Position numbers and translations under genes: made by a program. From contig CACYKA010000010.1 in NCBI GenBank assembly GCA_902774795.1, forward strand, positions 1 through 52,465: a DNA stretch of 52,465 nucleotides. Direction: 5' to 3'. The notes beneath the pieces are model-generated. The model worked only from the letters and a program-made list of their open reading frames with translations. It had not been told where the DNA came from and did no database searches. Each line of letters begins with the position of its first letter. Positions within the stretch are counted from its first letter, which is position 1. Of this stretch, positions 3,897 through 52,297 are shown piece after piece. This DNA is from an uncultured Prevotellaceae bacterium. Lineage in GTDB: Bacteria; Bacteroidota; Bacteroidia; Bacteroidales; Bacteroidaceae.

Positions 3897-4415
3897 ATGA
3901 CAAAAAGGTTTTTCATACTCCTGACGATGGGGCTGATGATGAGTGCTGGCGTAATGGCTCAGGGCTTTATATCAAGATACCACGACGTAGAGCTTAATGA
4001 GGCTCAGGGGAGCGTCAAGTCAATAACATTAAGAGACTTGGCGGGAAAGGTTAAGAGGATTGAATTCACAGAAGAGGGTCAGGAGAAAAACCTGAAAGAC
4101 CCTGTGTATGACACTAACGGCTACCTGCAGTCGCATAAGCGCAATATGTTTGGATTCACCTTTGTCGCCAACTATACATGGGAATACGACAGAGTGACAA
4201 AAATCAGTGGTAACGTGATGAATATGCCTGCTGAAATAGAATATGTATATGATGCCGCAGGGGAACTGACCAGTAATATCGTAAACCTCCAAGGTCACAG
4301 AACCGAGGGACAGTACAGCGACTATGAATATGACGAGAGGGGCAACTGGACAAAGCGCAAGTATAGCCTGGCAGGAAAGGAGTTTACGGAGACACGCACA
4401 ATAGAGTACTATTGA
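3897..4415 (+). CDS. Exported protein with YD/RHS-like motifs
   Basis: A 172-residue protein from ATG 3897, chosen for its signal peptide (MTKRFFILLTMGLMMSAGVMAQ, cleavage likely after AQ). An upstream ATG at 3864 would start within six bases of the promoter -7 box and spoil the signal. The mature part contains beta-strand motifs of the YD-repeat kind: YDTNGYLQSHKR, YEYDERGNWTKRKYS and YVYDAAGELTSN, each with Y-x-D-x-x-G. Such short exported YD-motif proteins are common in Bacteroidales and their role is not known. Its stop codon lies in a heptamer array that leads directly into the addA-like gene, so the two may be cotranscribed. Confidence 0.75.
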   Translation: MTKRFFILLTMGLMMSAGVMAQGFISRYHDVELNEAQGSVKSITLRDLAGKVKRIEFTEEGQEKNLKDPVYDTNGYLQSHKRNMFGFTFVANYTWEYDRVTKISGNVMNMPAEIEYVYDAAGELTSNIVNLQGHRTEGQYSDYEYDERGNWTKRKYSLAGKEFTETRTIEYY

Positions 4416-4453
4416 TAATTGATAGTTGACAATTGATAATTAAGAATTGAGGC
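4412..4453. repeat. Heptamer array (TTGATAA type), 6 units, between two genes
   Basis: Six 7-bp units in register: TTGATAA, TTGATAG, TTGACAA, TTGATAA, TTAAGAA, TTGAGGC. The first unit includes the stop codon of the upstream gene (4413-4415), and the last begins with the TTG that starts the addA-like frame (4447). Confidence 0.8.
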
Positions 4454-7546: not shown

Positions 7547-10217
7547 GTTTTTAGAATCAGTAGCTTCAAGTTTACATGCCGAATTCAATGGCAACCTCTC
7601 CGACGTTACTGTCGTGTTTCCGAACAAGCGTGCATCGCTGTTCATGAACAGGGCATTGGCTGAGATTCAGACGCCCGTATGGTCGCCGCGATATATCACT
7701 ATCTCCGAACTCTTCAGGAGCTGTTCTCCTGATGTGCAGCTGGCTGACCGAATACAACTCGTCATAGAACTGTATGAGGTTTACTGTAAGGTTACAGGTT
7801 CAACAGAATCGCTGGATCAATTCTACGGATGGGGTGAGCTGATGCTGGCAGACTTTGACGATATAGACAAGCACATGGCGGATGCAGAGCAGATATTCAC
7901 ACTGCTTAGCGACATACATGAACTTGATGGCATTGACTATCTTTCTGATAACCAGAAAAAAGAGCTGCATCGCTTCTTCTCAAACTTCACCGAGAGTCAC
8001 AGCACAGAACTCAAACAGCGTTTCCTTAGGCTATGGAAGCGTTTCGGAGAGATTTATACTACATACCACAGCGTGCTCCTAAGCAAAGGCATAGCATACG
8101 AAGGCATGCTGTACCGCAGGGTCATAGAGAATATAAACTCTCAACTCTCAACTCTCAACTATCAACTAAAATACGTTTTCGTCGGCTTCAACTATATCAC
8201 TCCCGTTGAGCAGAGGCTGTTCGATTATCTAAGGAAAGAGGGTAGGGCGCTGTTCTATCAGGATGACGAACCGGCAGACCCGCTGCCTGTGACGTTTCTT
8301 GCAAGTCCTACCAACGACCTGCAGGCAAGGTATATATCTGATTGGCTCACGCCGGAGCGCATAGCAGCAGGCAGAAAGACCGCCATAGTTCTTGCTGACG
8401 AGACTCTTCTTGAGACGGTGCTTCATTGTATTCCGCCGTCTGTGGAACATGTAAACATCACTGTGGGTTATCCTCTTGCCAAGGCACCGATATCGTCTTT
8501 GGTACGTCTGTATAGCACCATGCTGCAGCGTAAGGCCCTGACCCTGCACAGCGTCAACTCCCTGTTGCGTCATCCGTACATGCAACTGGTATCGGAGAAG
8601 ACACAGCAACTGCACGAAACACTTAATGACCAGTTGTGTTATTACCCCACGCTGGAAGACCTGGCATTGGACGAGAACCTCAGGCTTTTCTTTACACCTG
8701 CCGAAGATGTCCTTGAACGTCTGATGTGGCTTGTGGAGACAATAGCAAGGTCAGAGCAGATGACTGATGATTTCTTTCATGAGTCAGTATTCAGAATGTA
8801 CTGTATTCTTGAGCGTATGCAGGACATCATGCGTGACTTTGATATTTCTCCGACGCTGTTCAATAATCTTCTCGTTCAGATAATAAAGACTACCACGATA
8901 CCTTTCCACGGCGAACCCCTGGAGGGAATACAGATAATGGGTGTGCTGGAGACCCGTAACCTGGACTTCGACCATGTGCTGATGCTCTCATGCAACGAGG
9001 GCTATATGCCCGCCCACGTCAGCGACACTTCGTTCATTCCGTATTATGTCCGCAGGGGCTATTCGCTGACAACCATTGACAATAAGGTGTCTATCTACCG
9101 TTATTACTTCGAACATCTGCTGAAACGCTGCCCTGATGTAACGCTGGTGTATAGCAATGCCACCACCGACGGCAAGGTGAACGAGATGTCACGCTTTATG
9201 CTTCAGCATCTGGCTGCCCATGCAAACCTTGTGACTCATCGTAGTCTCGTCACCCAGACACAGGAAACAGCGGCAGAACTTTCAACTTTCAACTTTAAAC
9301 TTTCAACTCTCAACTCCCCATTGTCCCCATCTTCTCTTGCCCGCTACCTGCGTTGTCCGAAGTCATTCTACTATAATAAGATTCTTGGTATCAGTGATGT
9401 TGAGGAAAGTGATGAAGAAGAGATGGATGCACGCACCTTCGGAAATATCTTCCATAAGGCGGCAGAACTCCTGTATCGTCCTCACGAAGGGCATACTCTC
9501 CCAAAGACATTTTTCGATGGCTTGCTTAACGAAGAAGGTCATGTGACGCTCAGCCGTCTGGTGGACGAGGCAATCCGCAAGGAACTCTTTAAAATGAAAG
9601 ACGATTCCCGCAAGATGCCGAAACTCGGAGGTCTGCAGGTCATAAACCGCGAAATGGTGCTGACATTCCTCCGGAACCTCGTAGCCTATGATGCTTCGAT
9701 GGCTCCGGTAACAATCCTCGGACTTGAGAAACAGATTATAAGGAATGTGATGCCCGATGTAAAGATAATAGGTTTCATTGACCGCATAGACAAGGTTGTT
9801 ATCGACGGTAAGGAGTATGTCCGCATCATCGACTATAAGACAGGACGTCTGTCAGGACGTTCAAAATTGGAACTGCCAAGCGTTGAGGATATCTTCCAGC
9901 CGGAATCAATATCAAAGCACTCCGACTACTTCCTGCAGGCATTGCTCTATTGCAGTTTGCTCGCAGACACGAAGGAGCCTCTTCTGCCTAACCTTTTCTA
10001 TGTACAGCATCTGGGTGAGGAGTCATACTCTCCCAATCTTGTTCTCGACAGGATGCCCGTTCTCGATGCACGTCAGTATAAGGAGCCGTTCATGCAGGGA
10101 ATACGCAACCTCATCAACGAGATTCTCAACCCAGAAAATACATTCCCTTGCACAGAAGATACTACTCGTTGCAGGAATTGCAGCTATTGGTCAATATGCA
10201 AAATAAGTCAGCAATGA
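7545..10217 (+). CDS. addB: AddB-like PD-(D/E)XK nuclease/helicase-like subunit
   Basis: An 890-residue partner of the AddA-like protein. The N-terminus (VTVVFPNKRASLFMNRAL) is the degenerate helicase start of AddB. The C-terminal nuclease domain shows IGFIDRIDKV and IIDYKTG (about residues 745 and 762). Four cysteines that could hold a 4Fe-4S cluster are present: one in YLRCPKSFYYNK (about 604) and three in the C-terminal segment with CRNCSYWSIC (about 876-884), as in AddB and related nucleases. ATG 7545 is chosen over an upstream in-frame ATG at 7479, which lies inside addA. Two heptamer arrays inside the gene encode LSTLN-type inserts (residues about 197-208 and 578-591). The stop overlaps the next ATG (ATGA). 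Confidence 0.85.
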   Translation: MFLESVASSLHAEFNGNLSDVTVVFPNKRASLFMNRALAEIQTPVWSPRYITISELFRSCSPDVQLADRIQLVIELYEVYCKVTGSTESLDQFYGWGELMLADFDDIDKHMADAEQIFTLLSDIHELDGIDYLSDNQKKELHRFFSNFTESHSTELKQRFLRLWKRFGEIYTTYHSVLLSKGIAYEGMLYRRVIENINSQLSTLNYQLKYVFVGFNYITPVEQRLFDYLRKEGRALFYQDDEPADPLPVTFLASPTNDLQARYISDWLTPERIAAGRKTAIVLADETLLETVLHCIPPSVEHVNITVGYPLAKAPISSLVRLYSTMLQRKALTLHSVNSLLRHPYMQLVSEKTQQLHETLNDQLCYYPTLEDLALDENLRLFFTPAEDVLERLMWLVETIARSEQMTDDFFHESVFRMYCILERMQDIMRDFDISPTLFNNLLVQIIKTTTIPFHGEPLEGIQIMGVLETRNLDFDHVLMLSCNEGYMPAHVSDTSFIPYYVRRGYSLTTIDNKVSIYRYYFEHLLKRCPDVTLVYSNATTDGKVNEMSRFMLQHLAAHANLVTHRSLVTQTQETAAELSTFNFKLSTLNSPLSPSSLARYLRCPKSFYYNKILGISDVEESDEEEMDARTFGNIFHKAAELLYRPHEGHTLPKTFFDGLLNEEGHVTLSRLVDEAIRKELFKMKDDSRKMPKLGGLQVINREMVLTFLRNLVAYDASMAPVTILGLEKQIIRNVMPDVKIIGFIDRIDKVVIDGKEYVRIIDYKTGRLSGRSKLELPSVEDIFQPESISKHSDYFLQALLYCSLLADTKEPLLPNLFYVQHLGEESYSPNLVLDRMPVLDARQYKEPFMQGIRNLINEILNPENTFPCTEDTTRCRNCSYWSICKISQQ
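8134..8168. repeat. Heptamer array inside addB, 5 units
   Basis: TAAACTC, TCAACTC, TCAACTC, TCAACTA, TCAACTA in exact 7-bp register, encoding NSQLSTLNYQLK. The helicase-like domain reads normally on both sides, so the array is an in-frame loop. Confidence 0.85.
9276..9317. repeat. Second heptamer array inside addB, 6 units
   Basis: GAACTTT, CAACTTT, CAACTTT, AAACTTT, CAACTCT, CAACTCC in register, encoding ELSTFNFKLSTLNSPL just before the cysteine segment of the nuclease domain. Confidence 0.85.
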
Positions 10218-11896: not shown

Positions 11897-12826
11897 TTAT
11901 CTGGTTCTCTCTCGCTCCATGTCAGCACGGCTTCGCGACTTTGTAACGAGCCATACACCGCTGAACACCAGTATCACCGCCAGCGCATGGCTGGGACGAA
12001 GGATGCCGATTCCTGTTAGTACACTCACGATGACCGATACCAATGGCTGTACGTAGTTATATACCGATACCACTGTGGGGCGTAGTGTCTTCTGACCAAT
12101 CATTGTCAAGACGTAGCCTATATAGGTGCCGAAAAATACCACATATCCGGCTTCCCACCATGTCTTGTCTGGTATGGGGTGACTGACTACTTCACTGACA
12201 TGCCCGAAGGTGAACGGAACGATAAATAGTGTGGCCCATAGGAACATCCACTTGTTGATGGTGAAGACGGAGTAGCGCTTAATCAGCTTATTAAATAAGG
12301 AAAGATACAGGGCGAAAGAAAACTGTGCTGTCAAACATAGCAAATCGCCGCGAATATCACCTACCTTGTCGCTGCTGTTAGCTGCCGATGTAAGGATGAG
12401 TATCAATGCTCCGCTGCATCCCAGTAATACGCCGATGGCTTTCTTGCCCGTGATAGGCTCCTTCAGGATTATTGCAGCCAGAATCATTGCGAAGATAGGC
12501 ATCGATGTGGTGACTATCGAGGCATTGATTGGAGAGGTTATCGACAGACCTAAGGTATAACAGCACTGGTTTGTCACCAAGCCGAAGAAGCCTGCTCCGA
12601 TGAACATCAGCTTATCCTTGAGCGACACATGTTCGTGCTTTACAAACAGCGATGTAAGCCAGAAAAGCAGACAGCCTCCTGCTACGCGGAAAGTAACCAT
12701 CGTCAGACCGTCAAGCCCATGCGTCATTGCATCCTTGCCAAGTGGAGCCATAAGGCCCCAGAAGGCACATGCTCCGAACATCGAAAGATGGGCGATGATT
12801 GGCCTGCGATTGTCGTTACTTTCCAC
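11897..12826 (-). CDS. EamA/DMT-family transporter
   Basis: A 309-residue inner-membrane protein with ten predicted membrane segments in two EamA repeats. The first repeat begins HLSMFGACAFWGLMAPLGK and contains the EP-type motif ILKEPITGKKAIGVLLGCSGALI. The second begins about residue 157 and ends with VSVYNYVQPLVSVIVSVL. Members export metabolites or amino acids; the substrate cannot be read. There is no ATG: the start is GTG at 12826, preceded by a heptamer array that also supplies an AAAGG-like ribosome site on the minus strand. Without this GTG the first membrane segment would lose its cytoplasmic lead. It lies between the GH43 gene and greA in one direction. Confidence 0.85.
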   Translation of the reverse strand: MESNDNRRPIIAHLSMFGACAFWGLMAPLGKDAMTHGLDGLTMVTFRVAGGCLLFWLTSLFVKHEHVSLKDKLMFIGAGFFGLVTNQCCYTLGLSITSPINASIVTTSMPIFAMILAAIILKEPITGKKAIGVLLGCSGALILILTSAANSSDKVGDIRGDLLCLTAQFSFALYLSLFNKLIKRYSVFTINKWMFLWATLFIVPFTFGHVSEVVSHPIPDKTWWEAGYVVFFGTYIGYVLTMIGQKTLRPTVVSVYNYVQPLVSVIVSVLTGIGILRPSHALAVILVFSGVWLVTKSRSRADMERERTR

Positions 12827-12829
12827 CTT

Positions 12830-12857
12830 TAACCTTTAACCCTTAACCTTTAACCGT
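12830..12857. repeat. Heptamer array (TAACCNN), 4 units, GH43-EamA junction
   Basis: TAACCTT, TAACCCT, TAACCTT, TAACCGT in register, touching the stop codon of the GH43 gene (12857-12859) and ending four bases before the GTG start of the EamA gene (minus-strand order). Confidence 0.8.
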
Positions 12858-14251
12858 TATTTCATCTCCCACCAGTCGAAGTTGAAGAGCTTCGGACCCT
12901 TACGTCCTCTGAATACAAAGTAGAGGTCGGCGGTGCGGGGCAGGGTAGTAGTAGCTGCCTTAAAGTCTGCAGAGAGTGTCTTCCAGCAGTCCCATCCACC
13001 TGTTCCTGGCACTTGCAGAGTACCCAGCAAAGTACCTTTGATGCTGTCGATATGCACCTCTATCTGACCTCCGCGAAGACCGCTTGCAACACGGGCAGAG
13101 AACTTGCTTGGACATGTGCCGCCCAATTCTACATTCTGAAGTTTGATATAGTCGCCGTCATGTATGTCAGTAACATATACCTCGAGTTTCTTACCTGCTT
13201 CGCGCTGTTCTGTCTTTATACCTTTTGAGAATGCCATTGTCTCAGCCTCAACCTTTGTGTAAGGATTGAAGGTTGCGATGGGCTTCACGCCTTCGTCGGT
13301 AGGCATTATCGTTGGGAACGAACCGTCAGGATTGTATTTGAACTCCTCAACGGCAACACTGCGTCCGAAACCGCCTCCGCCAGGCAGCTTACCTGTGTGA
13401 TAGAAGAAATATGAGTGTCCCTTAAAGTCTGCAACGCCGCAATGGTTGGTGAATGACTTTGTATCACATAGCGGCATAATCTCTCCTGCATAAGTCCAAG
13501 GACCTTCTGGTGACGGTGCCGTGCTGTAGGAAATGTGCTCAGGCACTCCACCGGCAGCATACAGCAGCTGGTATGTTCCATTGCGCTTGTTAAGCCATGG
13601 GCCTTCTACGTATGAATCCTTATATTTCTTTCCCTTCTCACGCTTATCCATAGAGGGAGAACCGAAGGCTTCTTCCGTCATGTCGAACTGCTTCACCTCA
13701 CCATCGAAAGAAATCATGTCCTTGTTGAGTTTTGCATAATATACTCTTGGGTTGCCCCACATTAACCATGCCTGTCCGTCATCGTCAATCATCACTGTAG
13801 GGTCGATGTTGTCCCATGAACCATTGTCAAAGAGAGGCTTGCCTATTGCGTCACGGAACGGGCCTGTTGGCGAATCGCTTACTGCTACGCCGATAGCCAT
13901 ACCTTTCTTAATATTAGAGTGAGCACAGATATACCAGTAGAATTTTCCATTACGTTCAATTGTCTGTGCAGCCCATGCACGGTCATCAGCCCAAGAGAAA
14001 CTTTCCAAAGCCAATGGTGAGCCGTGGTCTTGCCAGTTTACCATGTCGGCAGTAGAATATACGCGCCATTCCTGCATCCAGAAGAAATCGGCATTGTCTT
14101 CATCGTGACCTGTATAGACATACATGCGGTCTCCGTGTACCATAGGTGCCGGATCACTGGTGTACCAGGTCTGTACGAAGGGGTTCTGTGAACTGGCTGT
14201 CATTGCCACGAACGACAGCATAATAAAGAGAAGTGATTTAAGGCTTTTCAT
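12857..14251 (-). CDS. Secreted GH43 glycoside hydrolase with CBM6-like module
   Basis: A 464-residue enzyme. ATG 14251 gives a signal peptide (MKSLKSLLFIMLSFVAMTASS); the frame is open further upstream but only through the tRNA region. The five-blade propeller shows the GH43 acidic residues: SDPAPMVHGDRMYVYTGHD (base Asp), NIDPTVMIDDDGQAW (second Asp) and YVEGPWLNKRNG (acid Glu). The C-terminal 130 residues (KVEAETMAF, DGDYIKLQNVELG, GGWDCWKTL) match a CBM6 carbohydrate-binding module. GH43-CBM6 enzymes usually release arabinose or xylose from arabinoxylan; the exact substrate is inferred. No SusC/SusD partner is near, but a GH105 gene lies just upstream across a tRNA. Confidence 0.9.
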   Translation of the reverse strand: MKSLKSLLFIMLSFVAMTASSQNPFVQTWYTSDPAPMVHGDRMYVYTGHDEDNADFFWMQEWRVYSTADMVNWQDHGSPLALESFSWADDRAWAAQTIERNGKFYWYICAHSNIKKGMAIGVAVSDSPTGPFRDAIGKPLFDNGSWDNIDPTVMIDDDGQAWLMWGNPRVYYAKLNKDMISFDGEVKQFDMTEEAFGSPSMDKREKGKKYKDSYVEGPWLNKRNGTYQLLYAAGGVPEHISYSTAPSPEGPWTYAGEIMPLCDTKSFTNHCGVADFKGHSYFFYHTGKLPGGGGFGRSVAVEEFKYNPDGSFPTIMPTDEGVKPIATFNPYTKVEAETMAFSKGIKTEQREAGKKLEVYVTDIHDGDYIKLQNVELGGTCPSKFSARVASGLRGGQIEVHIDSIKGTLLGTLQVPGTGGWDCWKTLSADFKAATTTLPRTADLYFVFRGRKGPKLFNFDWWEMK

Positions 14252-14316: not shown

Positions 14317-14331
14317 AGTTCATTTTTATGT

Positions 14332-15806: not shown

Positions 15807-15862
15807 CTAACATCATACATCTTACATCATACATCATACATCATACATCATACCTCTTACAT
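15807..15862. repeat. Heptamer array (CATACAT type), 8 units, trxB-GH105 junction
   Basis: CTAACAT, CATACAT, CTTACAT, CATACAT (three times), CATACCT, CTTACAT in register. It fills the gap between the trxB stop (15865) and the GH105 start (15796). Confidence 0.85.
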
Positions 15863-15864
15863 CT

Positions 15865-16812
15865 TTATATCGTCTGCAGATATTTTTCTGCTTCGAGTGC
15901 TGCCTTGCATCCTGTGCCTGCCGCTACTATCGCCTGACGATAAATCGGGTCGCAGACATCGCCTGCAGCAAATACTCCGGGAACGATATTTCCTGATTTG
16001 TCACACACCTGCTGTGTATTGCCGACGGTCTTGATGTAACCCATCTCATCAAGGTCCAGTGTGTCGGCGAAAATATCTGTTACAGGTTTGTGGCCTATGG
16101 CAAGGAAGAAACCATCTATTGCAACGTCGTAACGCTCCTCGTCAGGCTCTCCCTTACGCTTTACGAGGTGCATGCCCTCCACGCCGTTTTCTCCGTATAG
16201 CCCGATTGCATTGTGCTCGAAAAGTATTTCTATATTATCTGCCTCACGCACCCTCTGCTGCATAATCTCTGAAGCACGGAGATAGTTCTTACGCACTACG
16301 AGATACACCTTCTTACATAGTCCAGAAAGATACAGCGCATCTTCGCAGGCAGTGTCTCCGCCACCGATTACTGCTGTAACTTTTTTGCGATAGAAGAAGC
16401 CGTCGCATGTAGCACATGCACTGACTCCCATACCGTTATATTTCTGCTCGTCAGGCAGACCCAGGTACTTTGCCTTCGCACCGGTGGAGATGATTATGCT
16501 GTCAGCCTCAATCACTGTTCCATCATCTGCCGTTGCCTTATATGGTCGTGATGAAAAATCCACGGCGGTAATTTCTCCGTCGCGAATCTCTGTGCCAAAG
16601 CGCTCTGCCTGTTCGCGTATCTCCATCATCATCTGGTTGGCATCAACTCCCTGCGGATAACCGGGGAAGTTTTCCACGATGGTGGTCTGTGTTAACTGTC
16701 CTCCCTGCTGTGGGCCACAGTATTCTACTGGTGAGAGGTTTGCACGTCCGGCATATATTGCCGCTGTGTATCCGGCAGGTCCGCTGCCGATTATGAGGCA
16801 TTTTGTTTTCAT
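15865..16812 (-). CDS. trxB: Thioredoxin reductase
   Basis: A 315-residue NADPH-dependent flavoenzyme that reduces thioredoxin. FAD-binding GSGPAGYTAA (residues 9-18), redox-active CATC (C133-C136), NADPH-binding VIGGGDTACEDAL (about 148-160) and the C-terminal FAD motif VPGVFAAGDVCDP are all present. Length matches the low-molecular-weight bacterial type. It is the gene after a small exported Asn/Ser-rich protein and before the GH105 gene. It may help supply the peroxiredoxin at 20710 with electrons through thioredoxin; no thioredoxin gene is in the window. Confidence 0.96.
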   Translation of the reverse strand: MKTKCLIIGSGPAGYTAAIYAGRANLSPVEYCGPQQGGQLTQTTIVENFPGYPQGVDANQMMMEIREQAERFGTEIRDGEITAVDFSSRPYKATADDGTVIEADSIIISTGAKAKYLGLPDEQKYNGMGVSACATCDGFFYRKKVTAVIGGGDTACEDALYLSGLCKKVYLVVRKNYLRASEIMQQRVREADNIEILFEHNAIGLYGENGVEGMHLVKRKGEPDEERYDVAIDGFFLAIGHKPVTDIFADTLDLDEMGYIKTVGNTQQVCDKSGNIVPGVFAAGDVCDPIYRQAIVAAGTGCKAALEAEKYLQTI

Positions 16813-20709: not shown

Positions 20710-21156
20710 ATGAACATTGGGGACAAAGCGCCTGAGATACTAGGCAAAGACGAAACAGGGCGTGAAATACGCCTGAGTGATTACAAGGGACGCAAGCTGG
20801 TGCTCTATTTCTATCCGAAAGACAATACCAGCGGATGCACCGCCGAGGCATGCAGCCTGCGCGACCATTATGGCGAACTGCAGGGCGCCGGGTATGAAAT
20901 TGTTGGTGTGAGCAAAGACTCTGCCGCTTCACATCAGAAGTTCAAGGCAAAGCACAACCTGCCATTCCCGCTTATTGCCGATGTTGACAAAACGCTCCTT
21001 GAGGCTATGGGAGCATGGGGAGAGAAGACTATGTATGGCAAAAAGACCATGGGCACCATCCGTACCACCTTTATAATAAATGAAGAAGGTGTCATCGAGC
21101 AGATTATGTCCGGCAAACAAATCAACACCAAAGACCACGCCAACCAGATTCTTTAA
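20710..21156 (+). CDS. bcp: Thiol peroxidase/peroxiredoxin, Bcp type
   Basis: A 148-residue thioredoxin-dependent peroxidase that removes hydrogen peroxide and organic hydroperoxides. ATG 20710 gives the family start MNIGDKAPEILGKDETG. The active site YPKDNTSGCTAEACSLRDHY holds the peroxidatic Cys (SGC) and the resolving Cys five residues later, the Bcp/PrxQ pattern. The C-terminal TIRTTFIINEEGVI is also typical. Its stop codon is the first base triplet of a heptamer array that leads to the BASS transporter gene. Diverges from DUF3822/rsmD. Confidence 0.95.
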   Translation: MNIGDKAPEILGKDETGREIRLSDYKGRKLVLYFYPKDNTSGCTAEACSLRDHYGELQGAGYEIVGVSKDSAASHQKFKAKHNLPFPLIADVDKTLLEAMGAWGEKTMYGKKTMGTIRTTFIINEEGVIEQIMSGKQINTKDHANQIL

Positions 21157-21195
21157 CAATTATCTTTTAACTATTATCTTTTAACTTTTAACTAA
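21154..21195. repeat. Heptamer array (TAACNNT/TATCTTT), 6 units, bcp-BASS junction
   Basis: TAACAAT, TATCTTT, TAACTAT, TATCTTT, TAACTTT, TAACTAA in register. The first three bases are the bcp stop codon and the array ends two bases before the TTG start of the next gene. Confidence 0.8.
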
Positions 21196-28545: not shown

Positions 28546-28618
28546 TTGCGGAGGCAGGACTCGAACATGCGACCTCCAGGTTATGAGCCTGGCGAGCTAC
28601 CAACTGCTCCACTCCGCG
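28546..28618 (-). tRNA. Initiator tRNA-Met (CAU)
   Basis: Minus-strand gene with acceptor CGCGGAG/CTCCGCA, giving the C1:A72 mismatch that marks bacterial initiators, anticodon loop CTCATAA (CAU) and stem CCAGG/CCTGG (two G:C pairs next to the loop). The T-stem GCATG/CCTGC has one U:C mismatch. CCA is not encoded. Confidence 0.9.
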
Positions 28619-38371: not shown

Positions 38372-41300
38372 TTAGTTTTTCTTTATGAATATTTTCGCAT
38401 TAAACTCGCTGAAGTCCTGTTCTGAGCCTTCGCTGGCATCTCCTATGACAAGACTGTTGGCAAGTACCTGTGCAGCAATGTGACTGCCGAAAGCATCTAC
38501 AGCCTTCTTCAGTTCGTCTCTGTCTTCTATCACGACATCTATTCTGTCAGTAATCTCAAACTGAGAATCCTTACGCATAGCCTGTATGCGCTTGATGATA
38601 AGACGTGCTACACCTTCATTCTTCAGTTCCGGAGTAATCTCAATATCCAGAGCAACGGTTATGGTACCTTCCTGAGCTATAGTCCATCCTGGGATATCCT
38701 CAGAGATGATTTCCACGTCTTCCTTTTCTATGGTGACGTTCTCGCCAGCAGCAACAAGGGCAACTGTACCATTGTTCTCCAGTTCGGCAATCTGCTCCTG
38801 TGTCATTGCCATTACGGCGTTGTTCACATCCTTCATCAGCTTTCCGAACTTCTTACCCATAGTGCGGAAGTTACACTTCACCTTCTTCACCAGCTGTATG
38901 CCGGCGCTGTCATCAATGAAGTTAAGTTCCTTGACGTTTGTCTCTGCCAGGATAACATTCTTCATGCGATCTATAGCCTTACGCATAGCAATGTCGGTAG
39001 CAGGTATGGATATGGTCTGCAAAGCCTGTATTACAGGTATCTTCACCTTCTTACGCAGGGAGAGTACCATAGAGGTAACCTGCATGGCAAGCTGCATAGC
39101 CTCTTCCAGTTCTTTGTCGATATACTCTTCTACAGCCTCTGGGAATTTTGCCAGATGCACAGACAGAGAGGTATCTTTCTTTGTAACCTCATTCAGGCTG
39201 ACAAAGAGTTCGTCTGCATAGAACGGAGCGACAGGAGCCATGATGCGTGAGAGGGTGTTCAGACAGGTATAGAGAGTCTGATATGCACTCAGCTTGTCTT
39301 CACTTGCCTCGTTACCCCAGAAGCGTTTCTTGTTCAGACGAATATACCAGTTAGACAGCTTGTCGATGACAAAGCTCTGAATCATTCTTACTGCCGGTGT
39401 AACGTCATAGTCTGCAAGATACTTATCTACCTCCTTCACGAGTGAGTTAAGTTCAGACAGCAGCCATCTGTCAAAGTCAGGACGCTTGCTGTATTCTATG
39501 TCTGCCTCCTTGTATTCGAAGCCGTCAACGTTGGCATACAGTGTAAAGAATGAATATGCCTGATACAGCTTGATAAAGAAGCTTGAAGTAACCTCCTTCA
39601 CGCCGTCAAGGTCGAAAGACAGATTATCCCAAGGAGAAGAGTTGCTTGTCATGTACCAGCGAACGGCATCTGCTCCGTAGGTGCTGATACAGTCAAACGG
39701 ATTGATTACGTTTCCAAGACGCTTACTCATCTTTATTCCGTTCTTGTCGAGCACCAGTCCGTTAGAGATGACATTCTTGAATGCTACGGAGTCGAATACC
39801 ATAGTACCAATTGCATGTAGCGTAAAGAACCATCCGCGTGTCTGGTCAACGCCCTCTGCGATGAAGTCTGCAGGGAATGCCTTGCCGTTGTCGATGAGTT
39901 CCTTGTTCTCAAACGGATAGTGTACCTGAGCGTAAGGCATAGCACCTGAGTCAAACCATACATCAATAAGGTCTGTCTCACGTGTGAGTACTGTACCCTT
40001 GTCTGATACCAGCTTGATATAATCTACGTAAGGACGATGGATGTCTATCCTGTCATAGTTTTCCTTTGACATATCACCTGGCACGAAGCCCTTGTCCTTC
40101 AGTATGTTTGATTCCATCACACCAGCCTTCACAGCCTTCTCTATCTCGTTATAGAGTTCTTCGAGTGAGCCGATGCAGATTTCCTCCTTTGTATCCTTGT
40201 TACGCCAAATAGGCAGCGGAGTACCCCAGTAGCGTGAGCGTGACAAGTTCCAGTCGTTCAGGTTCTCAAGCCACTTTCCGAAGCGTCCTGTACCTGTTGA
40301 CTGTGGATGCCAGCTGATGGTCTGGTTCAGCTCGAACATTCTGTCTTTCTTTGCCGTAGAGCGGATGAACCATGAGTCGAGCGGATAGTAGAGCACAGGC
40401 TTGTCTGTACGCCAGCAATGAGGATAGTTGTGCACGTGCTTCTCTATCTTGAATGCCGTACCCTCCTCTTTCATCTCAAGACAGAGGATGACGTTGAGGT
40501 CCATATCCTTATTGGCAGCCTTCTCGTCATATCCGTTCACGTTATATTTCGGGTCGTAGGCATTCTTTACGTAAGCTCCTGAATGCTTCCAATATGACTC
40601 GTTGACACACAGTTCCATGAATTCAGGCTGCATATCTTCTTTTACGAAATACTTACCCTGGAAGTCAACCATAGGACGTGTATCGCCTGCCTTGTCAACA
40701 ATAAACAGCGATGGTATTCCTGCATCCTTTGCTACCTTTGCGTCATCAGCACCGAAGGTAGGAGCAATATGTACGATACCAGTACCGTCTTCTGTCGTAA
40801 CATAGTCACCAGGAATAACGCGAAATGCCTTCTCGCTCTCATCTGTTATCTTGCCGCTTTCGTCCATGCTGCAAGGCTTCACCCAAGGCATCAGCTGCTG
40901 GTACTTTGTGCCAACCAAATCTGTACCCTTACCTCTCCACAGAATCTCCGGTTCCTGTCCTTCTTCCTGTGTAAAGTATGCTCCCATTCTGCTTTCTGCT
41001 ACCACATATACGGCAACCTCGTCTGTATATGGATTCTTACCCTTCAGGGCAACATAGTCAATCTTCGGACCTACGCACAGCGCGGTATTTGAAGGCAATG
41101 TCCATGGGGTTGTCGTCCATGCAAGAATATATACTGGGAGTTCAGAGTTTAAAGTTGAAAGTGTAGAGTTGAGAGAAGACTTCTCCACACGGAACTGGGC
41201 TGTTACGGTAGTATCCTTTACGTCCCTGTAGCAACCAGGCTGATTAAGTTCGTGAGAAGACAGTCCCGTACCAGCTGCCGGCGAATATGGCTGTATGGTA

Positions 41301-41830
41301 TATCCCTTATAGAGAAGTCCCTTGTTGTACAGCTGCTTCAGCAGATACCACAGGCTTTCAATATACTTGATGTCGTATGTGATGTACGGATTCTCCAAAT
41401 CAACCCAGTAGCCCATCTTGTTGGTAAGCTGAGTCCATTCGTCCGTGTACATCATGACATTCTTTCTGCATGCGTCGTTGTATTCGTCAACGCTGATTTT
41501 CTTGCCGATGTCTTCCTTCGTGATTCCGAGGCTCTTCTCCACGCTCAGCTCTACTGGCAGACCGTGAGTGTCCCAACCTGCCTTACGCTTCACCTGATAG
41601 CCCTTCATGGTCTTGTATCTCAGGAACACATCCTTGATAGTACGACCCATGACATGGTGAATGCCCGGATGTCCGTTAGCAGACGGAGGACCCTCAAAGA
41701 AGATGAATGGCTTACAACCTTCTCTTTCATCTATGCTCTTATGAAAGATGTCATTCTTCTCCCACTCTGCAAGTACCCTCGCGTTCGTCTCCGCAAGATT
41801 TAACGTCTTATATTCCTTAAATTTTGTCAT
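38372..41830 (-). CDS. ileS: Isoleucyl-tRNA synthetase (long type)
   Basis: An 1152-residue class I synthetase that charges tRNA-Ile. The HIGH-type motif is HPGIHH (54-59) in GPPSANGHPGIHHVMGRT, and KMSKR occurs near residue 700 (NGIKMSKRLGN). The GWDTHGLPVE and the editing-domain region (TTPWTLPSNTALCVG) are present. The length and HPGIHH form resemble the eukaryote-like IleS2 type, some of which resist mupirocin; this is an inference from the family. An in-frame heptamer array encodes SSLNSTLSTLNSEL (about residues 218-231) inside the editing domain. A 98-bp array precedes the gene. Confidence 0.96.
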   Translation of the reverse strand: MTKFKEYKTLNLAETNARVLAEWEKNDIFHKSIDEREGCKPFIFFEGPPSANGHPGIHHVMGRTIKDVFLRYKTMKGYQVKRKAGWDTHGLPVELSVEKSLGITKEDIGKKISVDEYNDACRKNVMMYTDEWTQLTNKMGYWVDLENPYITYDIKYIESLWYLLKQLYNKGLLYKGYTIQPYSPAAGTGLSSHELNQPGCYRDVKDTTVTAQFRVEKSSLNSTLSTLNSELPVYILAWTTTPWTLPSNTALCVGPKIDYVALKGKNPYTDEVAVYVVAESRMGAYFTQEEGQEPEILWRGKGTDLVGTKYQQLMPWVKPCSMDESGKITDESEKAFRVIPGDYVTTEDGTGIVHIAPTFGADDAKVAKDAGIPSLFIVDKAGDTRPMVDFQGKYFVKEDMQPEFMELCVNESYWKHSGAYVKNAYDPKYNVNGYDEKAANKDMDLNVILCLEMKEEGTAFKIEKHVHNYPHCWRTDKPVLYYPLDSWFIRSTAKKDRMFELNQTISWHPQSTGTGRFGKWLENLNDWNLSRSRYWGTPLPIWRNKDTKEEICIGSLEELYNEIEKAVKAGVMESNILKDKGFVPGDMSKENYDRIDIHRPYVDYIKLVSDKGTVLTRETDLIDVWFDSGAMPYAQVHYPFENKELIDNGKAFPADFIAEGVDQTRGWFFTLHAIGTMVFDSVAFKNVISNGLVLDKNGIKMSKRLGNVINPFDCISTYGADAVRWYMTSNSSPWDNLSFDLDGVKEVTSSFFIKLYQAYSFFTLYANVDGFEYKEADIEYSKRPDFDRWLLSELNSLVKEVDKYLADYDVTPAVRMIQSFVIDKLSNWYIRLNKKRFWGNEASEDKLSAYQTLYTCLNTLSRIMAPVAPFYADELFVSLNEVTKKDTSLSVHLAKFPEAVEEYIDKELEEAMQLAMQVTSMVLSLRKKVKIPVIQALQTISIPATDIAMRKAIDRMKNVILAETNVKELNFIDDSAGIQLVKKVKCNFRTMGKKFGKLMKDVNNAVMAMTQEQIAELENNGTVALVAAGENVTIEKEDVEIISEDIPGWTIAQEGTITVALDIEITPELKNEGVARLIIKRIQAMRKDSQFEITDRIDVVIEDRDELKKAVDAFGSHIAAQVLANSLVIGDASEGSEQDFSEFNAKIFIKKN
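41136..41177. repeat. Heptamer array inside ileS, 6 units
   Basis: On the plus strand GGGAGTT, CAGAGTT, TAAAGTT, GAAAGTG, TAGAGTT, GAGAGAA; on the coding strand AACTNTN-type units. It encodes SLNSTLSTLNSEL in the editing domain, an insert not needed by the fold. Confidence 0.8.
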
Positions 41831-41861: not shown

Positions 41862-41959
41862 TAACCAATAACCGCTAACCTCTAACCGCTAACCCTTAAC
41901 CTCTAACCGCTAACCCTTAACCCTTAACCTTTAACCTTTAACCTTTAACCGCTAACCGT
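41862..41959. repeat. 98-bp array of 14 perfect-register heptamers (TAACCNN)
   Basis: Fourteen 7-bp units, each TAACC plus two variable bases (AA, GC, TC, GC, CT, TC, GC, CT, CT, TT, TT, TT, GC, GT). It fills most of the space between the permease stop (41966) and the ileS start (41830). Confidence 0.95.
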
Positions 41960-41965
41960 CCCCCC

Positions 41966-43195
41966 CTACTCCATTCTCATCGTCTTTGCCGGCCTTACGG
42001 TTCCTATGAAGAAACTTGGTATCACCAGTACGGCAATTGTTATTATCAGCGTCACTATGTTGAGGAGCAATATGATTATCCAGTTCATTTCAACCGGAGC
42101 CTCACTCACGTAGTATGCCGTTGGATCCAGTTTCACTATACCGAATTTTTCCTGCAACAGGCATATACCTATTCCTATGATGTTGCCCCATACCATACCT
42201 TTTACCACGATGCCCAGCGCAAGCCATCTGAAGGTCTTTCTTATCGTGCTGTTTCTCGCTCCGAGGGCTTTCAGCAGACCTATCGTCGAGGTGCGCTCCA
42301 GAATGATGATGAGCAGTCCGCTGACTATTGTGAATCCTGCCACGCAAACCATCAGTATGAGTATTATCCACACGTTGAGGTCCAGCAGGTCGAGCCATGC
42401 GAATGTCTGTGGACTCATGTCATATACCGTGCATGATGCCAGATTGTGCATCTGCGAGTCCTGGATGTTGTCAAACTTCTTTGCCACTCTCTCGGCCACC
42501 ACGTTCAGACTGTCAAAGTCAACCACCTGCAGTTCGCAGCCAGTCACCTGGGTATTCTCCTCGTCTATCTTCCAGCCGTTCAGTCTGCTGATGGTATAGA
42601 GGTCGGTGAAACACATTATGTCGTCATAGCGTGCGAAGTTGGTCTGATATATTCCTGTTATGTTGAAAGGGCGCGCCCTTACCTCATCGTCGCTCAGGAA
42701 ATACACGAAAACCTTTTTTCCGACCTTCAGCCGCAGCTTGTCTGCCATATTCTTTGATATGAGCAGCTGCTGGGTGCTCTTGTACATGCTCAGGCGGGGC
42801 ATCTTTCCCTCTATCAGGTTTGAGGCCAGGAATGTGGTATCGTAGTCCTCTCCTACCCCCTTGAACATCACACCGAGGAAATCATCGTTTGTCTTCAGTA
42901 CACCTTGTTTCTGCGAGTACCGCTGTACCCGTTCTACTCCCTCTGTCTTCTTTATATCCTTTATCAGCTTATTGTCGGCGTTTATCGGGTTCGACTGGTC
43001 AAGTGTGTGGAGCGTCATGTAGTTGGTCACTACGATGTCCGAACTGAATCCTATCACCTTGTCGCGGATGGTGTGTTTGAAACCCGTCACCACGCAGACA
43101 CTGATTATCATCACCGCAATACCCAGGGCCACACCCAGCATGGCTATCGGCGCCTTGGGCCTGAAATGTCTCGCTATGTAAAATGAAACATTCAA
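41966..43195 (-). CDS. LolC/E- or FtsX-like ABC transporter permease
   Basis: A 409-residue MacB/FtsX-type permease with four membrane segments: one near residue 20 (MLGVALGIAVMIISVCVVTG) and three after about 270 (LILMVCVAGFTIVSGLLII, and two more near 330 and 370). The large periplasmic domain lies between them. The start MNVSFYIARHFRPK and the layout match LolC/LolE, which release lipoproteins from the inner membrane. Family members of this type also act in other export systems, so the name is not firm. LolA is 12 kb downstream. Neighbours are heptamer arrays on both sides. Confidence 0.85.
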   Translation of the reverse strand: MNVSFYIARHFRPKAPIAMLGVALGIAVMIISVCVVTGFKHTIRDKVIGFSSDIVVTNYMTLHTLDQSNPINADNKLIKDIKKTEGVERVQRYSQKQGVLKTNDDFLGVMFKGVGEDYDTTFLASNLIEGKMPRLSMYKSTQQLLISKNMADKLRLKVGKKVFVYFLSDDEVRARPFNITGIYQTNFARYDDIMCFTDLYTISRLNGWKIDEENTQVTGCELQVVDFDSLNVVAERVAKKFDNIQDSQMHNLASCTVYDMSPQTFAWLDLLDLNVWIILILMVCVAGFTIVSGLLIIILERTSTIGLLKALGARNSTIRKTFRWLALGIVVKGMVWGNIIGIGICLLQEKFGIVKLDPTAYYVSEAPVEMNWIIILLLNIVTLIITIAVLVIPSFFIGTVRPAKTMRME

Positions 43196-43202
43196 TCGTC
43201 TT

Positions 43203-43244
43203 TAACCTTTAACCGTTAACTGTTAACCTTTAACCGTCAACTCT
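43203..43244. repeat. Heptamer array (TAACCNT), 6 units, overlapping a gene end
   Basis: TAACCTT, TAACCGT, TAACTGT, TAACCTT, TAACCGT, CAACTCT. It covers the stop and last codons of the aminotransferase gene (43230-43244) and ends eight bases before the permease start (43195, minus-strand order). Confidence 0.85.
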
Positions 43245-44432: not shown

Positions 44433-44647
44433 GTAATGTGATTTTTTTAGAGAAAGGGCCGCACCAGTGATGTGATGAAAACTCCGAGTTTAGTATTTAG
44501 AGTGCTCTCCGCTTTTGTAATCCACCGGCTGTTCAGCTGGGACTTGCATCCCTGTGGCCCGCCATAGGCAAGAGAAACGGTCTCCGAGTTCCGATTATTT
44601 GATGAGTATCCCTATCGAACCGATACGACCCTATAAATTTTTGCGTG
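44433..44647 (-). ncRNA. Candidate structured leader or small RNA upstream of the aminotransferase
   Basis: About 215 bases with no reading frame lie between a strong minus-strand promoter and the aminotransferase ATG. They contain many short hairpins: TATCG-AAC-CGATA (44613-44625), GAGA/TCTC (44572-44584), GCC/GGC (44561-44569), GGGA/TCCC (44539-44552), GCTG/CAGC (44528-44537) and AAACTC/GAGTTT (44479-44491), all in plus-strand terms. No terminator T run follows on the minus strand, so the transcript probably continues into the gene. It does not match tmRNA, RNase P RNA, SRP RNA or any riboswitch class whose signature I know. A metabolite- or protein-sensing leader is possible. Confidence 0.45.
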
Positions 44648-47642: not shown

Positions 47643-49130
47643 ATGAGTCGAAAGAAACCACTGCCGTTACTTACAAACGTAGAGATAGAGGACTTTGCCG
47701 CTGAGGGCAAATGTCTGTTTCATTGGCATACAGGAAACGAGGAAAGCGAGGGTAAGAACCTCGTTGTCTTCGTACCCTTCTGTGTGCCTGGTGACATTGC
47801 CGACATACAGATACGCCGCAAGAAACATTCCTTTGCCGAGGGCGAGGTGGTGCGCATCGTGACTCCGTCACCAAAGCGTGTGGCCCCGAAATGCGAGCAC
47901 TTCGGACTGTGTGGCGGATGCAAATGGCAGAACGTGCCGTATGCAGAGCAGCTGGCATACAAGCAGAGACAGGTTCACGACCAGCTGACGCGCATAGGAA
48001 AGATAGAGCTGCCGGAGTTCCACCCCATAAAGGGTTCCGTGAAGACTGAGGGCTACCGCAACAAGCTCGACTTCGGATGTGCCAATAAGCGTTGGCTGAC
48101 CACCGAACAGCTGAAAGATGAAACGCTGGTGAAGGAAACGCCTGCCATAGGATTTCACATCACGGGGGCGTTTGACAAGATTCTGCCAATAAGCAAATGC
48201 TGGCTGATGGACGACCTGCACAACGAGATTCGCAACGGCATCTATGAGTATGCTCTGGAGAACGGCATCTCGTTCTTCGACCTGCGCCAGCAGGTGGGTC
48301 TGTTGCGCGACGTCATCATTCGTTGCAGCAACGGCGGAGAGTGGATGGTGATAGTACAGTTCCACTTCGAAGCTCCTGAAGACAAAGAGAAGGCTATGGG
48401 GCTGCTCCAGTATGTTGCCGATACCTTCCCGCAGGTGACGTCGCTCATGTACCTCGACAACCAGAAGTGCAACGACACCATCGGCGACCAGGAAATAATA
48501 ACCTACAAGGGCAACGACCACATATTCCTTTATATGGAAGACCTGAAATTCAAAGTCGGTCCCAAGTCGTTCTACCAAACCAACACCGAACAGGCGTACG
48601 AACTCTACAAAGTCGTAAGGGAATTTGCGTTCAACAGTAAACAGTCAACGGTAAACGGTAAACTGTCAACCGTAAACTGTAAACTCCCCCTCATCTACGA
48701 CCTCTACACCGGTACAGGCACAATAGCCAACTTTGTTGCAAAACAGGCATCGAAGGTAATCGGTATTGAGTATGTTCCTGAGGCCATAGAGGATGCAAAG
48801 ATAAACTCGGAGATTAACGGCATCGGTAACACACAGTTCTTTGCCGGAGACATGAAGGACATACTTACCGACGACTTCATAGCCGAGCATGGCAGACCCG
48901 ACATCATCATTACCGACCCACCCCGTGCCGGTATGCATCCCGATGTGGTGAAGACCATACTGAATGCAAAGCCGCAACGTATAGTCTATGTCAGCTGCAA
49001 TCCAGCCACCCAAGCCCGCGACCTCAGCCTGATGGACGCCGACTACAAAGTGGCAGAAGTCCAACCCGTTGACATGTTCCCCCACACCCCCCACGTGGAA
49101 AACGTCGTACTGCTCGAAAGACGCAGCTAA
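47643..49130 (+). CDS. rlmD: 23S rRNA (uracil-5-)-methyltransferase
   Basis: A 495-residue SAM-dependent methyltransferase of the TrmA/RlmC/RlmD group; RlmD methylates U1939 of 23S rRNA in E. coli. An N-terminal TRAM-like domain (LPLLTNVEIEDFAAEGKCLF, VFVPFCVPGDIADIQI) is followed by cysteines that could hold a 4Fe-4S cluster (PKCEHFGLCGGCKWQ, and a later Cys in ISKCWLMDD). The SAM motif YDLYTGTGTIANFVAKQASK is about residue 357, IITDPPRAGMHP about 423 and the catalytic YVSCNPATQARDL about 447. A heptamer array encodes SKQSTVNGKLSTVNCKL (about 332-348) between the two halves. The exact target (RlmD or RlmC) is not decided by motifs. Confidence 0.9.
   Translation: MSRKKPLPLLTNVEIEDFAAEGKCLFHWHTGNEESEGKNLVVFVPFCVPGDIADIQIRRKKHSFAEGEVVRIVTPSPKRVAPKCEHFGLCGGCKWQNVPYAEQLAYKQRQVHDQLTRIGKIELPEFHPIKGSVKTEGYRNKLDFGCANKRWLTTEQLKDETLVKETPAIGFHITGAFDKILPISKCWLMDDLHNEIRNGIYEYALENGISFFDLRQQVGLLRDVIIRCSNGGEWMVIVQFHFEAPEDKEKAMGLLQYVADTFPQVTSLMYLDNQKCNDTIGDQEIITYKGNDHIFLYMEDLKFKVGPKSFYQTNTEQAYELYKVVREFAFNSKQSTVNGKLSTVNCKLPLIYDLYTGTGTIANFVAKQASKVIGIEYVPEAIEDAKINSEINGIGNTQFFAGDMKDILTDDFIAEHGRPDIIITDPPRAGMHPDVVKTILNAKPQRIVYVSCNPATQARDLSLMDADYKVAEVQPVDMFPHTPHVENVVLLERRS
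48631..48686. repeat. Heptamer array inside rlmD, 8 units
   Basis: TCAACAG, TAAACAG, TCAACGG, TAAACGG, TAAACTG, TCAACCG, TAAACTG, TAAACTC in exact register; each keeps TNAAC. It encodes two 7-residue units of the KLSTVNC type, just before the SAM-binding strand. Confidence 0.9.
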
Positions 49131-50053: not shown

Positions 50054-52297
50054 TTATCTTGTCATACCTCCTTGACCATCAACAACTACACTATCAAAAC
50101 AAATCGCTGGGACAGAGTCTTCTATCATATACAATGGTGTTAAGAGTATTTTATAAATAAAAGTATAGTTCCTGTTGGGTTGCCATTGAGTCACTCCTTG
50201 TGGTGCAACTGTTGTAGTAGCTTTTTGATTAATGGTTTCAGCACTTCCGTCATCTGCAATCATAGTGAAATCGACTTCTACAACCATCTCCGTGTCTTCA
50301 TTGATGTCTTTTAAATAAACATTTGTGTAATTGCCATCAGCTCTGTCCAATGTTCGCGTAACAGTTGAAGTTCCTATTGTAGAGCCAATAATATCAGAAC
50401 CAAATTCTGCAACTCCTAATCCTGTTATATTTATTTTATTTATTTTTACTGAATAGCCTGGTATAGTTTCATAGAATCCGAATCGGACCCCAGCCTTTTC
50501 AAATTTATTATCTTCATCTTCATCATCTCCATTCACAATAATGTTGATTACCTCCTGAATGTCCGTGCCGTTGACGTTTCCATCCTCGTTCACGTCGCCC
50601 TTCTTGCTAACACTGCCGCCACTTACCTCTATTTCCTTGGTCGCAACTTCGGAATTCTCATAGCCCTCTTTCTTTGCATAGACAGTGATGATGTATGTTG
50701 TTTTAGTAGGCAGAGCAACATTTGTGCCCTGACCACTTATGGATGATGTAATGTCATATACAAACTCAACATCTTCTGTCTCGCAACTGAAGGTTAGCTC
50801 GCCATTCACATAATCTATGGTTGGTGTAGCGCATTGGGTTAATCCAGACAAAGTGTTAATTGTTCCGAATCCGCTCCAAGGTAATTTGTTTTTATATGCA
50901 TTGACAGAAGCAGATGGCACATATAGTTCAACATAATTAATGTATGAGTTGTCAAAGGTAGTTCTGGCCGTTGTCGGAACTAATTCTGAATAACATGTAA
51001 ATTTGTTTAGTTTGTCAATATTTGCAAAAGCATGTTCTCCTATAGTCTGAATATTTGAACCAATAGATATTGAGGTAACTGTTTTGCATCCATTGAAAGC
51101 ATCATCTCCAATAGACATGACGCTATCCCCAATAACATATTCTTCGACTTGTGAACCAAATATTTCTTTTATTGATGAATCTGAACTATATGCTTTAGAA
51201 GCAATCTCATTACTGTTTAGTACAACCATCTTCAAGTTGGTACAACCATTGAAAGAATCACCCCCGATTGAAGTCACGTTGCTACCTATAGATACATCTA
51301 TCAGGCTGGAGCAAGAAGCGAAAATACTTTCTCCTATTGATTTTACGCTATTGGGGATTTCTACTGATGTCAGGTTGGAGCATCTTTCGAAAGCATTATT
51401 ACCTATTAATGTAACACTATTAGGAATTTCAATAGAAGTAAGACCTGAGCAACCGGCAAAAGTCCTTTCTTTTATGTATGTTACGCTGTTTGGGATTTCA
51501 ATGGATGTCAGGCCTGAGCAATTATAAAAAGCGGACTCTCCTATTGATATTATGCTGTTAGGGATATTAGGGATAGTGACGGAGGTCAGGCCTGAGCAAC
51601 CAAAGAAAGCATGGTCTCCAATATATGTCACGCTGTTAGGGATGGTTACAGATGTCAGACTGGAGCAACCAGAGAAAGCATAGTCTTCTATTGATGTCAC
51701 GCTGTTGGGAATAGTGACAGATGTCAGGTTGGAGCAGTTACGGAAAGCATGATCTCCTATCGAAATAACATCATCTCCCAAAATATATTCATTAACTTGA
51801 CTGCCAAAGATGTCATTTAAAGAAGAATAAGAATAATACGAACTGTATGATTTAGATACAATAGCATTACTTTTTAATTCTACTTTAATTAGAGCTGAGC
51901 AACCATAGAAAGCACGACCTCCTATTGATGTCACGCTGTTAGGGATGGTAACAGATGTCAAAGCGGAGCATCCATTGAAAGTGTCATCTCCAATAGACGT
52001 GACACTGTTGGGGATTGTAACAGATTTCAGACCGGAACAGCCATAGAAAGCATAGTTTCCTATTGACGTTATACCATCAGCAATATCCACTGTTTTGATA
52101 TAAAATCCATTGGAATACCATGGTACATATTTATAAGAACTGTAGTTGCTCATTGCTCCTGTTCCTGTGATGGAAAGAACTCTTGTTGTTGTATCTAGTG
52201 AGTATCTGGCATTATCACCGCATGAGCCAGAATATATTTCTGCACTAATATTTAGTACACTTACAAAGCAGATGAATATAAGAGTTAGCTTTCTCAT
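50054..52297 (-). CDS. BspA-like leucine-rich surface protein with dockerin-like and fimbrillin-like ends
   Basis: A 747-residue protein with signal peptide MRKLTLIFICFVSVLNISA. After GSCGDNARYSLD and LSITGTGAMSNYSSY come about 15 BspA-type leucine-rich repeats of 23 residues (IPNSVTSIGDHAFRNCSNLT type), up to about residue 475. A CATPTIDYVNGELTFSCETE domain (about 480-560) is shared with the protein at 23456. A dockerin-like repeat (GDVNEDGNVNGTDIQE, about 566) follows, then a further 155 residues (VRFGFYETIPGYSVKINKIN, later QWQPNRNYTFIYKI) that resemble the end of fimbrillin-type proteins. BspA family proteins bind fibronectin, fibrinogen or other bacteria. A truncated paralogue lies at 1461-1601. 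Confidence 0.88.
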   Translation of the reverse strand: MRKLTLIFICFVSVLNISAEIYSGSCGDNARYSLDTTTRVLSITGTGAMSNYSSYKYVPWYSNGFYIKTVDIADGITSIGNYAFYGCSGLKSVTIPNSVTSIGDDTFNGCSALTSVTIPNSVTSIGGRAFYGCSALIKVELKSNAIVSKSYSSYYSYSSLNDIFGSQVNEYILGDDVISIGDHAFRNCSNLTSVTIPNSVTSIEDYAFSGCSSLTSVTIPNSVTYIGDHAFFGCSGLTSVTIPNIPNSIISIGESAFYNCSGLTSIEIPNSVTYIKERTFAGCSGLTSIEIPNSVTLIGNNAFERCSNLTSVEIPNSVKSIGESIFASCSSLIDVSIGSNVTSIGGDSFNGCTNLKMVVLNSNEIASKAYSSDSSIKEIFGSQVEEYVIGDSVMSIGDDAFNGCKTVTSISIGSNIQTIGEHAFANIDKLNKFTCYSELVPTTARTTFDNSYINYVELYVPSASVNAYKNKLPWSGFGTINTLSGLTQCATPTIDYVNGELTFSCETEDVEFVYDITSSISGQGTNVALPTKTTYIITVYAKKEGYENSEVATKEIEVSGGSVSKKGDVNEDGNVNGTDIQEVINIIVNGDDEDEDNKFEKAGVRFGFYETIPGYSVKINKINITGLGVAEFGSDIIGSTIGTSTVTRTLDRADGNYTNVYLKDINEDTEMVVEVDFTMIADDGSAETINQKATTTVAPQGVTQWQPNRNYTFIYKILLTPLYMIEDSVPAICFDSVVVDGQGGMTR

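Follow-up and report, generated by a model that had tools for sequence, protein, structure and literature searches.

Lineage-specific heptamer families in the tandem arrays of a Prevotella genome: possible unit copying between arrays

Introduction

Heptamer repeats as such are already known in bacteria. In marine Beggiatoaceae, TAACTGA heptamer direct repeats are found near start codons, and they were also described in five Bacteroidetes, two of which have close relatives with shorter joints between genes and without the repeats (MacGregor 2015, PMC4679880). According to that description, the system uses one unit, located mostly just before start codons, and related heptamers are seldom repeated. 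In Xanthomonas and Nostoc, GGGAATC and GGGGAYT heptamers, which are G-rich, quadruplex-forming and of one type per group, recur at shared joints of related species, with units that vary widely in length and sequence (PMC4692102). The same source mentions several different tandem heptanucleotides in one genome for the cyanobacterium Calothrix. Also, the 7-nt class predominates among the long simple sequence repeats of Mrazek (2007, as described in PMC4679880 and PMC4692102), for which polymerase slippage was proposed.

The arrays described here share with the TAACTGA repeats the condition of intergenic 7-nt direct repeats with many sites per genome (PMC4679880), and with the heptamers of Xanthomonas and Nostoc their intergenic location at joints common to relatives and their variability (PMC4692102). 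They resemble the Mrazek-type repeats in the predominance of the 7-nt class and, by description alone, Calothrix in having several units per genome. Unlike the TAACTGA system, they constitute many lineage-specific families of a hexamer plus a free base, with a bias to stop codons, no excess at starts and members in coding DNA. Their units are mostly A/T-rich and vary within one genome, in contrast to the G-rich units of Xanthomonas and Nostoc, and the Mrazek-type repeats, as the citing papers present them, come without mention of a free column, of independence between neighbours or of lineage-specific sharing. We found no paper on such heptamer arrays in Prevotella among the open-access papers searched, and it is the way in which these arrays evolve that is new.

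Materials and methods

The window is the whole stretch of 52,465 nucleotides that was analysed, contig C10 of a 2.44 Mb assembly (88 contigs, 79% complete), hereafter the source genome, whose ileS has rumen Prevotella assemblies as nearest named relatives. Period-7 arrays were detected by a lag-matching scan, which in the window used a score of at least 14 to define an array and order-2 Markov shuffles as control, and tandem repeats were also sought with TRF. A 452 kb sample of the source genome comprised the window and 20 other stretches, two of them picked for already known hits. The joint counts rest on our own, crude gene calls; those of genome G045 were left out of use because only 36% of it was called coding, which is implausible.

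Results

An array of fourteen heptamers upstream of ileS

41862..41959, no strand assigned: TAACCNN array of 14 units (GGTTA when read in the direction of the genes on either side), from the read of the letters, TRF and the lag scan
38372..41830, minus strand: ileS, class I tRNA synthetase, the gene downstream of the array
41966..43195, minus strand: MacB/FtsX-like permease, the gene upstream of the array; start uncertain (43141 in our gene call)

The first base of the array is 7 nt past the permease stop codon, and roughly 30 nt separate its last base from the start of ileS. A first-pass annotation of this DNA had read it as fourteen TAACCNN units in unbroken succession, which re-reading of the letters bore out; TRF reports periods of 7 and 21. 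The window contains the following further arrays.

4411..4451, no strand assigned: AATTGAN array overlapping a stop codon (TRF, lag scan)
12825..12859, no strand assigned: TTAACCN array with two co-oriented genes on either side (TRF, lag scan)
15810..15865, no strand assigned: ACATCWT array reaching over a gene end into the start of the following gene (TRF, lag scan)
21160..21193 (21152-21193 in TRF), no strand assigned: TTTAACT/TTATCTT array (TRF, lag scan)
43200..43241, no strand assigned: TTAACCN array flanked by the genes for an aminotransferase and the permease (TRF, lag scan)
8136..8168, plus strand: AACTCTC array within coding DNA, in the ORF of an AddB-like PD-(D/E)XK nuclease, peptide SQLSTLNYQLK (lag scan)
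9277..9316, plus strand: AACTTTC array within that same nuclease ORF, peptide FKLSTLNSPLS (lag scan)
48633..48685, plus strand: AACNGTN array (GTAAACN family) within the coding sequence of a TrmA/RumA-like methyltransferase (lag scan)

The first five of these had been named in the first-pass annotation and were recovered by both methods, but two other sites on its list were not: 7513-7546 is only a weak period-14 row in TRF, and 32740 is absent from TRF and the lag scan. The three intragenic arrays were missing from that list. An Rfam search of the window gave no match to the arrays. Elsewhere in the window it matched the Bacteroidales-1 RNA, a suggested 6S-like RNA (44451-44630, minus strand), and two tRNAs (14331-14412 and 28546-28618, both minus strand). 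Repeats of other kinds occur in two open reading frames: 50054-52297 holds two runs of imperfect 69-bp repeats (51567-51757 and 51903-52069), and 2603-3772 a 21-bp repeat present seven times (3030-3178).

Excess of period 7 and its uneven spread

The lag-matching scan found 9 period-7 arrays in the window against none in 10 shuffles, and the remaining lags from 2 to 30 gave 0-2 arrays each, save the multiples 14 (8) and 21 (6). In the 452 kb sample we counted 79 period-7 arrays, while no remaining lag between 2 and 13 exceeded 8. Although 87.6% of this DNA was called coding, 64 of the 79 arrays are noncoding and 15 coding. The noncoding DNA of the source genome (55.1 kb) yielded 55 arrays against 0 in 30 shuffles, with at most 8 for any other lag from 4 to 13; in this sense, the arrays agree with long simple sequence repeats, i.e. 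short-unit tandem arrays beyond chance. The suggestion that some process acting across the genome promotes a 7-bp period irrespective of the unit, and that these are not a simple microsatellite, is supported.

Among 80 ileS loci of relatives (1.58 Mb) there are 96 period-7 arrays, many loci having none, and lags 5, 6, 8, 9, 10 and 11 give 1, 10, 19, 10, 3 and 15 arrays. Density in sampled stretches is uneven, from 175 arrays per Mb in the source genome and 192 in G098 to 80 in G008, 35 in G045, 8 in G016 and 0 in G024; the arrays are therefore a trait of some lineages.

A possible explanation for such an excess would be ordinary replication slippage, by a polymerase that prefers 7-nt units at unconstrained sites, the families being slippage-prone sequences plus chance. 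In agreement, most genomes with abundant 5-11-nt repeats have heptanucleotides as their most frequent class, for which a polymerase footprint was proposed (PMC4679880 on Mrazek 2007), and array density follows tolerance, with 64/79 arrays in the 12.4% of noncoding DNA. Slippage alone is the main rival to the copying between arrays that we propose below; the structure of the families makes it somewhat unlikely as the whole account.

Position relative to genes

Arrays had been thought to lie between co-oriented genes. This emphasis is not confirmed, since 41/149 co-oriented, 5/19 convergent and 6/26 divergent joints of the sample carry an array, a similar frequency throughout that slippage would also predict; by bases, divergent joints have a smaller share (4.1% vs 12.6% and 8.0%). 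Arrays had also been said often to cover stop codons and to reach the next start codon. The first part holds: at co-oriented joints, 27/39 arrays overlap the stop codon or begin at most 3 nt away, where 14.5 are expected with random placing. The second does not, as 10/39 lie within 3 nt of the start codon (14.5 expected), so the placement of the TAACTGA repeats upstream of starts is not reproduced here. A 7-bp unit with a stop codon (TAA, TAG or TGA) crosses all three frames in 21 bp and would thus offer a stop in each of them; since an array of such units closes any frame, this may be why arrays settle at gene ends.

Translational coupling or re-initiation, which the first-pass annotation had offered as a driver, was rejected because all joint types are alike, arrays do not cluster at starts, they are gained and lost at one joint among related species, and they also occur inside genes.

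In sense orientation, arrays next to stop codons are rich in G (59 to 23, three sets together), and array-free joints are not (264 to 263). A strict strand grammar spotted by eye, with GGTTA after stops and TAACC before starts, was weakened by the start-side arrays, which are unskewed (24 to 28).

Fixed hexamers with one free base

The 93 arrays of the source genome that were clustered form 19 families. In the largest (21 arrays, consensus AACNGTA), one column holds 46 of the 68 within-array minority bases. GTAAACN, TTAACCN, TGAATTN, TCAATTN and others are the dominant units of this genome, and not the single unit of the TAACTGA type. The strongest families consist of a fixed hexamer and one free base. 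For GTAAACN, 19 exact runs place the free base directly behind GTAAAC and only 0-3 place it in any one of the remaining six columns, and the corresponding counts are 8 vs 1-4 for TTAACC, 5 vs 0-1 for TCAATT and 4 vs 0 for AAGGTC in G098; some families, such as TTCACTC, hardly vary. In long arrays of the source genome, the top column takes 103/241 minority bases (null mean 78.8, maximum 91 in 2000 nulls). In those of the 80 loci it takes 101/280 (null mean 86.9, maximum 102), and in 20 further stretches (L139-158) the excess is absent (23/74 vs 22.2 expected). Taken together, the three sets indicate that the free-column effect is strong in the source genome and weaker or absent elsewhere.

Heptamer families amplify by lineage. 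Counted as three-unit hits, which overlap within arrays and are not array counts, GTAAACN occurs 148 times in the source genome, 3 in G098, 12 in G100, 11 in G101 and 3 in G102, and AAGGTCN 9, 126, 26, 5 and 22 times, respectively. Across 60 genomes of the genus (source genome included), 10 have any GTAAACN hit of this kind, and the source genome, G008 (66) and G018 (37) are the only ones with more than 2. Near-identical units (at least 6/7) make up 3.8% of array pairs within the source genome, 0-1.4% of pairs with other genomes and 0.25% with shuffled columns; at the other loci they represent 6.8% of 59 same-genome pairs and 1.2% of 2219 different-genome pairs. Hexamers shared genome-wide by a lineage, in main families that vary in one column only, are not what local slippage predicts. 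GTAAACN arrays have no common flanking sequence outside the array, as judged by eye, and four arrays share the array end GGTTATAG.

A kept hexamer with a varying spacer base could also mean selected sites, where a DNA- or RNA-binding factor reads hexamers in phase, for example at transcript ends or in mRNA fate. Binding with 7-bp spacing had been suggested before, and the hexamer plus free base, the abutment on stop codons and the G-richness of stop-adjacent arrays are compatible with it. However, the skew between stop and start sides is not significant in any single set (P 0.09, 0.20 and 0.08), each genome has many hexamers that differ by lineage, close species lose arrays at joints, and some arrays lie inside enzyme genes, so that we regard this explanation as improbable.

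Neighbouring units

In GTAAACN of the source genome, the free bases of neighbouring units agree in 22/100 pairs with 26.4 expected (first 100 of 148 hits), and in AAGGTCN of G098 in 39/100 with 47.5 expected (first 100 of 126 hits). Neighbours no more alike than chance do not fit growth by unit duplication. Similarly, none of the 45 exact-hexamer families listed from five genomes, most of them small, reaches P<0.05 for neighbour agreement. In 11 of 17 loosely clustered families neighbours resemble each other more than units from separate arrays do, which favours slippage, although it is partly due to the merging of subfamilies. Slippage seeded at gene joints, as had been proposed, may then start or lengthen some arrays, but the neighbours of the two best-sampled families are not mutual copies.

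Copying of blocks predicts that arrays share longer strings of free bases. Arrays of the source genome share more 2-grams than expected (377 pairs vs 305, P 0.0018), and the prediction is borne out for these only; 3- and 4-grams are not above chance there, nor is any class in G098. No copying event with an identified donor and recipient was caught.

Hairpin-like elements and other possible sources

23433 in the window, plus strand: hairpin-like element
10547 in the window, minus strand: hairpin-like element
L009 2279, L019 16026, L022 824 and L027 2460: hairpin-like elements
L012 3956, L017 2305, L160 2756 and L161 2065: hairpin-like elements

These interspersed elements of about 35-45 bp, which also have a longer form, adjoin heptamer arrays or sit within them, both between genes and in the coding sequence of TrmA, and the heptamers to their left and right often match. 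The complete genome G045 has TAACACT/TAACATT repeats, in L169-L171 and further hits, that recur with identical letters as inverted pairs 50-100 bp apart; in 14 of its 39 three-unit TAACNNT hits the sequence is one and the same 21-mer, in many cases arranged as inverted arms in pairs. These look like copies of one fixed element, a contrast to GTAAACN and AAGGTCN.

Arrays could be traces left by a small mobile element, or belong to it: because hairpins often stand between heptamer units, as with AACCGCT (L012), AATTTTC (L017), AACTGAG (L160) and AAACCTC (L161), a 7-bp target duplication followed by loss of the element could leave heptamers, and the recurrent 21-mer of G045 would be in line with this. 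Yet the copies at 10547 and 23433 have no matching 7-bp duplication, most arrays lack such a hairpin, and exact footprints would leave no free column. Footprints of 7-bp target duplication are inconsistent at several element copies, and a mobile origin seems very improbable.

Synthesis of hexamer repeats off an RNA template by a reverse transcriptase, as in telomerase or in the telomerase-like reverse transcriptase system DRT10, with integration of the products, would fit templated tandem units in which one position is degenerate and the words are specific to a lineage; DRT10 yields tandem-repeat cDNA whose motif length varies by system (PMC12632851). Against it, a search of 10 genomes for RVT_1, which a divergent enzyme could escape, gave no match in six of them, i.e. 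the source genome (79% complete), G100, G101, G102, G008 and G018, so that three of the four sister species lack it; there was one match in G098 and one in each of the array-poor G016 and G024. This origin was rejected and we give it almost no credence. Untemplated addition of the NHEJ type was also rejected, as Ku was found in 0 of the 10 genomes searched.

Arrays inside the TrmA/RumA-like protein

In the TrmA/RumA-like gene of the source genome, the GTAAACN-type array sits in a loop preceding the methyltransferase domain and has a TCA codon at both places where an in-frame TAA would fall. The loop was recovered in 32 of 35 sequences compared (the window and 34 relatives), and 7 carry an insert of period 7, as judged by eye; the others have no insert or one that lacks this period. 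Units are AACNGTN in the source genome and AACTCTN in the same register in G098, CTCTCAC in L031 and L163, AGCCATC in L032, AAACCTC in L161 (at two separate sites of the gene) and CCTCTCA/GTTCTCA in L160.

Turnover at orthologous joints

At the ileS locus, G098, G100, G101 and G102 are 78-81% identical in DNA to the window and 86-93% among themselves; the closest pair used, G100 and G098, has 93% identity over 16 kb. We compared 31 orthologous joints, each with three or more of the five species represented (source genome, G098, G100, G101 and G102). An array is present in at least one species at 17 of them and in all species compared at 3, and units often differ. For example, the ileS joint has GGTTANN in the source genome, GGTTAAN and a CAATNTT array in G100 and G101, AGTTAAG and TCAATNT in G098, and a weaker AGTTGAA-like run in G102. 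At the joint L019:18366, the source genome has AATTTTC, G101 TTAACTC, and G098 AGGTCAA and TCAATTN, and the joint of G100 is empty, with 5 nt. At the joint 43141-43229, G100 has the unit AGAGTTT, which is similar to the sequence found locally at the G102 joint, where there is no array, as would be expected from slippage.

When both species of a pair have an array at one joint, the unit is shared (at least 5.5/7) in 23/57 cases. Ten of these 23 come from one divergent joint with conserved AATAAAG, and the remaining 13/47 still exceed the 3-4% of random between-genome pairs. Units at orthologous sites are thus alike beyond chance, indicating that part of the arrays descend by inheritance. The AATAAAG array of that kind at L009 3826-3999, a divergent joint, is kept in all five species without the turnover of other arrays and lies directly upstream of a T-rich promoter-like stretch.

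Discussion

We propose that the arrays are dispersed heptamer families that spread and become homogeneous in each lineage by copying of units between arrays, a reading to which we assign a probability of roughly 0.4. A replicating or repairing strand would pair with an array at another place over some six matching bases, copy one or more units and then return, by ectopic template switching or conversion. Copying through a 6-nt match would keep the hexamer, needed for pairing, and mix the free base, giving the 6+1 period. Local slippage is probably what begins and extends some arrays, and inserts would persist at sites that tolerate them, namely gene ends and, for stop-free forms, protein loops; we infer that the arrays themselves have no selected function. 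A bolder version is unlikely: a hexamer with one further base, untemplated or freely chosen, would be written in tandem at gene ends and in protein loops, with words that change genome-wide between sister species through concerted evolution by 6-nt matches or a repeat-writing enzyme.

If unit copying between arrays is correct, the heptanucleotide excess of bacteria would reflect, at least in this lineage, genome-wide copying in addition to slippage, with a readable signature of a free column, independence of neighbours and lineage-specific words, and the question of why the unit is of seven would become testable with sister strains. Moreover, in rumen Prevotella a mutational process would quickly rewrite gene ends and 3' regions, as well as loops in conserved enzymes (TrmA, for example), which would matter for annotation and for the reading of such inserts as functional.
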